Of a stretch of 64,000 nt of DNA, positions 57,912 through 64,000 are shown in pieces. The stretch lies in the NCBI GenBank assembly GCA_000827495.1, contig KN817522.1:434001-498000 (forward strand), given 5' to 3'. Position 1 is the stretch's first letter; each line of letters starts with the position of its first letter. Both the position numbers and the translations under genes were made by a program. Source of the stretch: Hypholoma sublateritium FD-334 SS-4. Taxonomy: Eukaryota; Basidiomycota; Agaricomycetes; Agaricales; Strophariaceae. The notes beneath the pieces are model-generated. The model had not been told where the DNA came from, did no database searches, and saw only the letters and a program-made list of their open reading frames with translations.

Positions 57912-59531
<1,620 letters not shown>

Positions 59532-59861
59532 GGTGAGATGGAGAAGGCGAGAAGAGCGCAGATGGGCTTTCTCTCAGACTCAGATATGAAAGCATTAGTC
59601 AACGGCACTATCGAGCACGTCATTATTGAATTGAGTCCCATGGGACGCAAATGGGACGACGTGGAAGAGAGATAAAAAGGAAGCGCAGCCGCCACGGATC
59701 AGTTGACCGCGTGAGCTGGGATCCCGTAATGACGTAAATCATGGTCAACCGTCACACGCACGGTCGTAACTCGTTTGTTAGCAGCGTACGCCGCACTAGT
59801 CTGCTTCCAAACGCGCATGGTTTACTAGGACCTCGGTTAATACTGTATTAGGTAAGATACA

Positions 59862-60013
59862 TGTCCACCCGAAAACGGCGGCCGTAGGCCGCGACACTCA
59901 GAAAAATATATATCAGTGTCCACCCGTTTTGAACACATTTTGCCCCCTCAGGTAAGGAGAAATTGTCCACCCAGATTTGGCTCACATTGTCCAGGGTCAG
60001 ATGTTGTCCACCC
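59862..60013 (+). repeat. Subterminal repeat array, TGTCCACCC x4 plus a variant
   Basis: Exact TGTCCACCC is at 59862, 59917, 59964 and 60005, all on the plus strand, plus TGTCCAGGG at 59988. Starts are 55, 47, 24 and 17 bp apart. Two copies are preceded by GGTAAG 11-13 bp upstream. Same-strand short repeats at an element end typically serve as transposase binding sites. Confidence 0.65.
59878..59892. repeat. GC-rich hairpin GCGGCC-GTA-GGCCGC
   Basis: A perfect 6-bp inverted repeat with a 3-nt loop, embedded between the first two TGTCCACCC copies in otherwise AT-balanced DNA. Confidence 0.5.
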
Positions 60014-60271
60014 GACACCATCGACCGATTTAGTGCTGCATTGAGACGGGCCACCAATAACTGATTGCAACTTTGGCAATCCGTGGCCGAGAAGTGGCCT
60101 CCAATTTTTTTCTCTGTAGAACAAGGGAGCCACTTGCTGCCACCATTTTTTTGAGTAAATTTCGGGTGAAATAGAAAATCCATGTAGCGCAGAACAGCGC
60201 AGAACCTGTTGAATCTCTATCTCTCTGTTTCTCGGAATCTTAAAAACTTTCCTCGGTGCTTAGTGCATGAA

Positions 60272-63200
60272 ATGGCAGAGAACTCTCTACCAATAACAAC
60301 AGATTCTGAACCTTCAAGCACATGTATTCTTGCCTCTTCTAACGACCTCTCAAGTTGGATTGGAACAGGGAAAATATATGAGGATGTCCCATCCTGTGTT
60401 TCTCGAGAACTACTCCGACGGCTTGAAGTTCCCCACAGTTCTATAAACCTTCTGCCAAGTGACAACTTATCAATATCTGCCCTTATCGCAACCAAATTTC
60501 CACCAGTAAAAACCCTCCATCTCGTCCTACCATCTTCTTGCTTCTCGGATAAAGAACCTAATACCAACCTCGATATTCTCCGGAGACAGCCTGTCCCATC
60601 GCGAGAATTTATCAAGAAGCTTCGTGATCTTGCAGGCCAAGCAATGCTCGATGGAAAAATCTCTATCAAAGACTGGACACAGAAGGAAAACGAAATATAT
60701 CTTCCATTTAGTTCTCTCAAATTTTGGTCCATACTTCTTGATTCTATCTCTACGAAATTATCCTGGACCCGAGCCATCATTTGGTTAAAACAACATAAAC
60801 TATCCCCAAATTCAATTTCACGCGTCGAATCAACAATCGAGAAAATACCCTGGAATGGATCAATTCGATCTTTAGGCGGATTTGTTACTATCACAGACAT
60901 GGCTTTATTTTTGTCTGATGAAATGCTTTCTGAAAGCCATGTTGACGCAATGTTGGCCGTCCTGAAGCAACGCATCTTGAAGTCACATCCCAATAAAGAT
61001 TCTATTATTATAGCGCACACAGCATTTGGACAAGCTCTTACAGGAATACCACAGTATAGATCTGCCTACCCTCACGGTGCTGCAGATGTTCTGATCAAAA
61101 GTGCAGTTCAGTTAAAAGATTTGAAAGCTCCAGCTCAGCTACTATCTGTGGCGCACTCGCACCCTGTCCACTTTGGCGCACTTCTGATTGAGAAGTCAAC
61201 AACTGGCTTCAAGGTTCACTGGGGTGATTCAATCCGACGTCCACAGCCAGCGAAGATGGTTAAAGGACTCAAGTCATGGTTTTCCCATCATTTTAAAGGC
61301 GATCGATTATCATTTTCAGAAGACATCAAATGTGCAAAACAGGAAGATGCCTACTCATGTTCGGTAATTGGTGTCAACACACTCAAGAATCACCTGTTCG
61401 GAGATCCTTCTTGGAACTCAAAAACACGCGAAGCGCTCCGTGTAGAAGAATTCTTAGAAATCATGCAATATCATTCTAAACATCTGGATGTTCATTCACC
61501 AGGACGGGTTACAGATGCCACCATGCCGGTGTCGCCGGGCCTCATGATCCCAAGTCCGGTTAATAATTTGCCATCTTTGGAAAGCCTACATACTCTGCTA
61601 TCTACGTGTGGTGCAAAGCGAGCTGCAAGCCTAGTTGAAAGCTGTCCGCCAGCAACTTCAGAACTTCCTCCACCGACTAAGAAGCAACGCACTAATACAC
61701 CCATACCGTTTGGCTATTCAAGCAAAGCTTCTGTTCAGCCGCCGTCAAACACAGCTCCCCCCAAAATACCCTTGAAGTCAGCAAGTAAAAAGAAGATAGA
61801 AAAGCGCTCAATGGCTTCAAAAAAACAGCTGAACGGTTCTGTTTTTGATGGGACATTTGAACGACATCCCGTTCAGTGGGAAAAATATAAAAAGAAGCTT
61901 CAAGCCCTTGATCCATACTATGAGGTCGACGAAAATGATCCTACTCGGGCGCGGTTAGTCAGACATTCAAGATGTGCAAAATTTATTATCATGTCAGTTC
62001 CATATGACATTAACCGATTTAAAGAACACTTAGCAACATGTAAAGCAAAAGTAAATCTCTCGGTGACAGCCAATACACGAACATTAGATGCTATGTTTTT
62101 CTCATCAAAGCTAGGTCAACAGCGCAGTGAAGATCCTTCATGCCAGTCGGAAGCAAATACCATCAAACTCTGGCCATGTCCAGGACTTACAGAAGCAGAC
62201 GACGAACGCATTAACCAATATCTGGGACGCACACAGTTGGGCTCGGGAGGTGGGATTAGTGAACGCATATTGGCTGATGAGATGTTTGGAAACCTATACT
62301 CAAGTCTAAATCCGTCTCAAAAGGATGCTGTTACACTGAGACAGCAGCAAACACATCGATGGCGGAATGACCACCTACATCAACGTATTTTTGCCATTGG
62401 CGAGACAAAGTGTTCTGAGAATGTAGGCGCATCAGTCGATGGAGACTCGGATGGCAATACCACCATCAAGCCTTGCATTGGATGCAAAGCATTGCTCTCT
62501 TTTCCCGCATTCCTGACTGCAATTACGAAACAGCAGCCCAGCGACAGAAATAGAGCATTTATTCCCCGTAGACATCAGAACACTGCTATCGGAAATATGC
62601 ATATCAAGATTCTTGGCCTTGGGGATCTATTATCCGAAGTAAGACTGCATATCTCTTTCTCAGCGAGAAACTGACAAATAAAATTATGTACAGGAAAGCG
62701 ACGATAGTATACTGTTGCGTTTTGCGCGCTCTTATGCAGAAGGCAAATTTGACAAAAATCAGGCCTTTCTGGAAATGCTCAGCGTTATGGTCTCACGCGC
62801 CGACCGTGAACAGAAAGGTCGTGGATTGCAGAACATGTACTATCCTCCGGCATTTGATGAATGGTGCCATGAACTTTTCTGCATCAGACCTGAGGCGTAC
62901 CGTTCCTTTCAACTCGCATTTGGTGGTCGATCTGAAAGAAGCTTTCGTCAAATGCGCTCATCTAAGCCAGCATTTTCTCAGGGAATAGGCGCTCATACAC
63001 TTGATCGAGCAAGAGAATACCTCAAGGACTATGGCTACCCACCAGAGGGACCACTAGCAACAGGGGTTGATGATACAAAGCTTCTTGAATCTTTCCGACC
63101 GTACTATGATGGCAGTCAGAAAATGTGGTTTCTCGTCGGTGGGACAGGCGAACCGATACTTGTTGGCAATATTGAACAACTCCAGGCTGATATTGACAAA

Positions 63201-64000
63201 GCAAGAGACCTCAAAGCAACAAAATTGCGTCTTTGGACTATGAGCATCCCTCTTCCTCGAATGCCTCCACTGATTCTCGCCGCAATGCCTATTTCCTCCA
63301 AAAATAGTGCTATTGAGCTTGCAAAAATGGAGGAGAAGCTACTTCGGCTCTTACTATCTTCTGGGGATAATTTCAACATCATCTCTCTCGGCTCCGACGG
63401 AACAAGTGTAGAACGTGAAGCTCGCCGTGAGCTCGTTCGGTCAAGATTTGCTAAGCCAGTCAAATATCAAATCCCGCACCCTGCGTCAGATTTTGGTTGT
63501 CCACCAATTGTTATTGAGTTGCTAAAGATCGGGGAAAGGACAATGGCATCTATTCAAGACTCTAAACACCTTCGGAAAACAACACGGAATAATTTGTTCA
63601 CGGGAGCTAAAGCTCTTATTCTTGGTCGCCATTTTATCTGTTTTCAGCAGATATGGGAAATTGCATCACTGCCAAACTCACCCATCTATGCGCGAGACGT
63701 CAAAAAGCTGGACCGACAGGATGATCGTGCGGCGGCACGGCTATTTTCTGCATCTACACTTGAATTCATTATTCAACACAATTCTACCAACCTTGGCTTG
63801 ATTGCGTACCTTTTCGTCTTTGGAGAAATGGTTGATGCTTATCAGAATCGGAAAATGTCGCACTTAGAACGAATAAAGCTCCTTCTCCGTGCTAAATTCT
63901 TCAAAGAAATCTGGAAGTCCTTCCTCAAAGAGGCGGGGTATAGCACTTGTCGCCACTTTATTAGCAAAGAAGCCGATGATATCATGGATATTGTTATCGA
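60272..64000 (+). CDS. Ulp1-like protease / zinc-binding / RNase H-fold transposase fusion, 3' end outside window
   Basis: Exon 1 runs from ATG 60272 (MAENSLPITTD) to 62638. A 55-nt intron (62639-62693) follows, and exon 2 is open from 62694 to the edge: over 1,220 residues. Residues ~290-400 match a Ulp1-type cysteine protease: His in HPVHFGALLIE, Asp in HWGDSIRRP, Gln-Cys in KQEDAYSCSVIGVN. Residues ~570-600 hold CAKFIIMSVPYDINRFKEHL followed by ATC, a C..H..C zinc-ligand pattern. Exon 2 has ATGVDDTKLLESF, NIISLGSDGTSVEREAR and QDSKHLRKTTRNNLF, resembling the first two acidic residues and the D-x-x-H-x-x-K-x-x-x-RNN motif of P-element/THAP9-like transposases. Domain names are inferred from motifs. 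An alternative is a KDZ-related element, which also occurs in mushrooms. Confidence 0.65.

Follow-up and report, generated by a model that had tools for sequence, protein, structure and literature searches.

What is encoded by the long open frame that leaves the right edge of this stretch of Hypholoma sublateritium FD-334 SS-4, and why are a protease and a transposase joined in it? The window is the whole stretch of 64,000 nucleotides that was analysed (contig KN817522.1; C5:434001-498000 of the 46.1 Mb assembly, which has 281 contigs). The likeliest answer is that the frame belongs to an intact, potentially autonomous cut-and-paste transposon that is P-superfamily-like and has a built-in Ulp1-type protease; on sequence and structure models, the probability of this is put at roughly 0.8. 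That the locus is a transposon carrying both enzyme folds is nearly certain.

Element ends and gene structure

A sequence-only reading of the window had described one polypeptide at 60272..64000, attributed it to a DNA transposon and proposed extending the contig to find the right end. That end was found at 66123 in extended coordinates, which continue the window numbering past 64000 (L002 positions are window positions minus 63500). The described start is indeed an ATG; the extent was too short on both sides, as the element begins 445 bp earlier and the gene ends at 65871 extended. The ends and exons are as follows.

59827-66123 extended (in-window part 59827..64000), + strand: whole element, 6297 bp
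59819..59826: target site duplication GGTTTACT, left copy, 8 bp
59827..59859, + strand: left terminal inverted repeat, 33 bp, begins AGGACCTCGGTTAAT, from end comparison
66091-66123 extended (L002:2591-2623): right terminal inverted repeat, from end comparison
66124-66131 extended (L002:2624-2631): target site duplication GGTTTACT, right copy, 8 bp
60272..62638, + strand: exon 1, codons 1-789, ATG at 60272
62639..62693, + strand: intron 1, 55 bp, GT-AG
62694-64633 extended, + strand: exon 2, still open at the window end, 64000
64687-65224, 65280-65421 and 65480-65871 extended, + strand: exons 3-5

The two inverted repeats agree at 29 of 33 bases, and GGTTTACT stands on both flanks as a perfect 8-bp duplication. 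With derivatives that carry the same or sister ends elsewhere, these features bear out a DNA transposon.

The gene has five exons and 1792 codons. Inside the window lie 1224 of these codons, in keeping with the continuous spliced frame of over 1,220 codons claimed before. Three further introns with GT-AG borders follow intron 1 in the extended sequence. All four splice junctions coincide with positions at which the alignment to close relatives is gapless or nearly so; because of this match, and because 44 homologous proteins exist, the frame is not a chance one. A gene-model artefact fusing two genes was set aside: exon 1 contains the protease and the zinc-finger-like region without interruption.

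Transposase core and protease domain

P elements are a classic animal transposon. The predicted protein contains the following parts.

60341..60781, + strand: N-terminal helical domain, residues 24-170, confidently modelled over most of its length
60794..61480, + strand: Ulp1/SENP/Den1-like protease domain, residues 175-403, from profile, fold and conserved residues
61937..62047, + strand: zinc-finger-like (BED-like) region, residues 556-592, with C568, H586 and C590
62829..62966, + strand: region matching the P-element helix-turn-helix (HTH) in relatives, about residues 835-880
63054..64000, + strand: P-element-type RNase H core with D915/D916, D1024 and D1078xxH1081

All motifs named in the sequence-only reading are present. 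In the core, GVDDTKL starts at residue 913, SLGSDGTSVER at 1020 and QDSKHLRKTTRNNLF at 1077; E1255, the third acidic residue of the active site, is beyond the window end. The structure model of the core was built for a relative, P0020, and not for the query copy. Its fold matches 6P5A/6PE2 far above all other structures, and it has the P-type RNase H layout, with one Asp on beta-1, another at beta-4 and a Glu on alpha-4, residues that are conserved in the family. An excerpt of PMC8230255 defines the P superfamily by a [C/D](2)H motif right after beta-5; D1078 and H1081 are kept in 45/45 sequences, and their P0020 counterparts, D656/H659, come after strand 649-655. P0020 residues 657 to 828 are mostly helices, which corresponds to the insertion as it is defined in part of PMC7776569. 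The ends also have the features of the superfamily, an 8-bp duplication and inverted repeats in the query copy, with a further duplication in a derivative on C66 (below). PF12017, the P-element HTH family, matches before the core in five of 24 distant relatives, one of them above cut-off. Sequence and model evidence thus supports a P-superfamily-like lineage in mushroom-forming fungi, and the P-element-like core proposed earlier stands. No THAP domain was detected in the query exons at an expectation value (E) of 10 or in the 44 relatives at E 0.1; the family is therefore not placed in the THAP9/animal P element subgroup. This agrees with the statement, in the available part of PMC7776569, that fungi are without THAP domains.

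The predicted catalytic set of the protease is H300, D319, Q357 and C363, within motifs that start at residues 297 (HPVHFGALLIE), 317 (WGDSI) and 356 (KQEDAYSC). The set had been recognised from the window alone; the refinement concerns the histidine, which is most likely H300, the second His of HPVHF, present in 39 of 41 aligned sequences. A family profile matches the domain to yeast Ulp1, with the catalytic residues aligned to the His-Asp-Gln-Cys set of Ulp1, and the domain model has a fold match to SENP and Den1. The query is below the Pfam cut-offs. PF02902 is detected at E 0.1 in 15 of 24 distant relatives and 2 of 20 closer ones; some relatives, such as P0022 and P0035, exceed the cut-off. 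By its predicted catalytic set, modelled fold and family profile, the protease belongs with the Ulp1 family, C48, and the claim of a Ulp1-like protease holds. Two outcomes had been named beforehand as fatal to the transposon-protease reading, namely the lack of a Ulp1 or RNase H fold and a single-copy gene without termini. Neither occurred: both folds are present (the core fold from the P0020 model), as are the termini.

The C..H..C motif of the zinc-finger-like region, from residue 568, is also widely kept (C568 in 42/44, H586 and C590 in 43/44 of the sequences with letters there). A zf-BED match was found in one relative, below cut-off. Between this region and the core there is a glycine-rich stretch, residues 657-661 (window about 62240-62254), in which G660 is found in 44/44 sequences with a residue there. 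For the N-terminal helical domain, no known family was found in the domain searches and a cursory fold comparison.

Relatives, other copies and end sites

The 44 homologous proteins (E 0 to 1.2e-116) come from a search that scored the 7991 candidates sharing most words. Names are available for 43 of them, and these include Flammula, Pholiota, Galerina, Psilocybe, Lactarius, Russula, Pleurotus, Mycena, Trametes and Ceratobasidium; we take all the named genera to be Agaricomycetes. The closest relatives point to a dark-spored member of the Agaricales as the likely host. At least 10 relatives have a UniRef name starting 'Ubiquitin-like pr...'. A core-only profile reaches 423 proteins at E 0.01, and the top 120 of these are available individually; among the core matches listed, the Laccaria protein P0082 is automatically named 'THAP9-like helix-...'. 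Automatic naming of this kind indicates that the P-like part is already recognised by databases. P0018 and P0036 are publicly named 'Methionine--tRNA ligase, mitochondrial', which is probably misnaming or the result of fused gene models. A search for relatives in viral contigs gave 187 pattern matches, none of which was confirmed.

Including the query, 39/45 sequences have letters over most protease columns and most core columns, a second reason for setting the two-gene artefact aside. In these 39, with the six gapped sequences dropped, distances in the protease correlate with distances in the core (r 0.88, rho 0.69), and 0 of 2000 permutations reach this r. Early joining of the two parts, followed by shared inheritance, would produce such a correlation.

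Sumoylation-type [VIL]KxE motifs number 0 in the query, against 1.5 expected, and 27 in the 45 proteins, against 47.3 in composition shuffles. These are fewer than expected; the sequences are related and the control is crude, and the comparison is not used as evidence.

The proposed search for copies with the same ends was productive. Used as queries, the left 374 bp matches four places in the assembly and the right 244 bp matches three; at the DNA level, four places is a lower bound on copy number. The 1-kb piece 63000-64000 has a DNA match in the assembly only to itself. Two deletion derivatives were delimited.

C13:67961-68544: 584-bp deletion derivative retaining both element ends, one over 353 bp at 85% and the other over 232 bp at 91%
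C66:24597-26037, minus strand: 1441-bp deletion derivative of a sister family, end AGGACCCGGG

The C66 derivative is flanked by a perfect 8-bp duplication, GCTACCAG. Its leftover codons match query residues 25-153 at 62% identity and 1691-1792 at 65% identity. A copy on C89 shares 623 identical bp with it, has another flank on the left and then gives way to N. Since these identical stretches sit at different left flanks, the sister family has probably moved recently. The recent activity proposed before is thus supported for the sister family; for the query copy, the intact frame and perfect duplication are what suggest it. Single matches to the 15-base repeat end are uninformative, because the reversed control gives more (49 sites with 2 mismatches allowed, against 78 for the control). 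Of the places with such matches, C13 extended; C22, C12, C10 and C70 failed to extend and were rejected as further copies.

In the C66 derivative, residues about 1-153 are joined in frame to 1691-1792, giving a 238-residue open frame with three ambiguous codons. The chance of staying in frame is one in three. Internally deleted P elements make truncated repressors, of which this open frame is reminiscent.

Internal to the inverted repeats, towards the middle of the element, there are two groups of repeated sites.

59862, 59917, 59964 and 60005 (span 59862..60014), + strand: four subterminal TGTCCACCC sites in the same orientation
L002 about 2483-2565, same strand as the left array: three right-end TCCACCC sites

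The TCCACCC core lies 38, 93, 140 and 181 bases from the left end; for the right end, the distances are 60, 96 and 135 bases. As all seven sites are on one strand, the two arms lack mirror symmetry. Sites occur at matching offsets (within about 1 bp) for 7/7 in the C66 copy and 6/7 in the C13 copy. TGTCCACCC occurs five times in the 64-kb window, four of these in the left array; shuffled sequence has a mean of 0.31, and 0/100 shuffles reach five. The likeliest role of the array, judged from sequence, is that of putative transposase-binding sites on non-mirror arms.

Mechanism, rival readings and known systems

The order of parts in the single protein is Ulp1-type protease, zinc-finger-like region, predicted HTH, an RNase H domain interrupted by a helical insertion, and C-terminal sequence. 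The zinc-finger-like and predicted HTH regions would bind the element's ends, both at the inverted repeats and at the subterminal TCCACCC sites, and the Asp-Asp-Glu (DDE) site would excise and insert the element. The fusion would carry the protease to the element's own ends, where it may strip SUMO or NEDD8 from the transposase, silencing proteins or repair proteins and let transposition proceed. These three kinds of protein are the candidate targets. Relief of SUMO-dependent silencing is a tentative candidate for the main purpose; protecting the transposase or helping repair is another, and is likewise speculative. A fuller scenario can be sketched, and is itself doubtful: a fungal P branch may have acquired a SUMO/NEDD8 protease in a single ancient event and kept it active, with the deconjugase delivered in cis via the same-orientation array to remove SUMO that silences the element or stands in the way of transposition. 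If true, the element would bring its own enzyme against silencing, much as other mushroom transposons do with TET dioxygenases.

Several observations weigh against an intact P-type element with a working protease. Among the PDB entries, sequence profiles failed to pick up the P element chains; PF12017 has no match in the query at E up to 10 or in any of the 20 closer relatives; and the catalytic Glu is Lys in 3/42 sequences. Membership in another superfamily with 8-bp duplications, such as hAT or KDZ (Zisupton), is very improbable. The KDZ transposase domain, which exists as a Pfam model, is absent in the 44 relatives (E 0.1) and in the query's in-window exons (E 10), and KDZ membership was rejected on this family domain. 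Further, DNA search of the assembly found one full-length copy only, and the C13 derivative has no visible target duplication. One full-length copy with an intact frame would fit a host gene that had been domesticated, like mammalian THAP9, and still carried the ends of a dead transposon. This is improbable: the 8-bp duplication is perfect and both inverted repeats are present, deletion derivatives with the same ends lie elsewhere in the genome, identical sister copies sit at different flanks, and close relatives are strongly diverged in sequence (best three 50-68%).

The remaining points concern the protease part. PF02902 has no match in the query at E up to 10, and P0042, one of the 39 sequences with letters over most columns of both parts, has no protease residues in the alignment. 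The query copy has Phe301 and Ser364 beside the catalytic residues, where most relatives have Trp and Gly. This departure would suit a non-enzymatic passenger, kept as a SUMO- or NEDD8-binding domain. Such a role is unlikely, as each of the four catalytic residues is conserved in 35-39 of the 39-41 sequences despite a mean domain identity of only 25%. A maturation enzyme, by analogy with the adenovirus and African swine fever virus proteases of the same clan, is unlikely too; it would cut its own polypeptide after Gly-Gly and free the transposase from the N-terminal part, and self-processing of this kind is possible but less likely. On conserved residues and modelled fold, the protease probably deconjugates some ubiquitin-like protein actively, as the preferred transposon-protease reading supposes.

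Compared with the Drosophila P element and THAP9, the Hypholoma protein has no THAP domain and has a Ulp1-type protease and zinc-finger-like region in front; it is 1792 codons long, and its element has a fungal host and a same-orientation subterminal array. Ulp1, SENP and Den1/NEDP1 (C48, PF02902) share the fold and His-Asp-Gln-Cys set; here the protease is part of a transposase protein and has Phe301 and Ser364 in the query copy. Mutator elements and Ginger1 likewise carry Ulp1 domains, within the transposase in Ginger1, as far as an excerpt of PMC2836005 describes them. Their transposases are unrelated, and the Ginger1 protease is C-terminal whereas this one is near the N-terminus. In the same excerpt, the Ginger authors propose that the Ulp1 and OTU domains might switch on repair factors while transposition takes place.

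Fungal KDZ and other transposons with TET/JBP dioxygenases also carry an enzyme able to undo a silencing mark, according to part of PMC12730594; their transposases and enzyme are different, and no KDZ family match was found here. Helitrons with VTD-type deubiquitinases have a transposon-borne deconjugating protease as well (excerpt of PMC9741609), but are rolling-circle elements with another protease family and a different active-site layout. A 2014 survey, in the portion available, describes PF12017 from insects and notes distant homologs in one amoebozoan and one chromalveolate (PMC3985635).

Within the open-licence literature, the fusion of a P-type transposase to a Ulp1-type protease is apparently new. 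A mushroom-wide P-type lineage may also be new there, and would be less so if fungal surveys list P elements. Since this mushroom family has complete ends, derivatives and an intact gene, its transposition is directly testable; in the P-type/Ulp1-type fusion, one mutation (C363A) would address why several unrelated DNA transposons gained deconjugating proteases.

To the right of the element, an open frame at L002:2718-4850 has DEAD and Helicase_C domains and is RecQ-like by eye. It begins less than 100 bp from the element's right end, beyond the duplication. It was rejected as part of the element because the inverted repeat and duplication end before it. The left neighbour of the insertion is a flavin oxidoreductase gene (PF00724) at window 58187-59017, on the minus strand.
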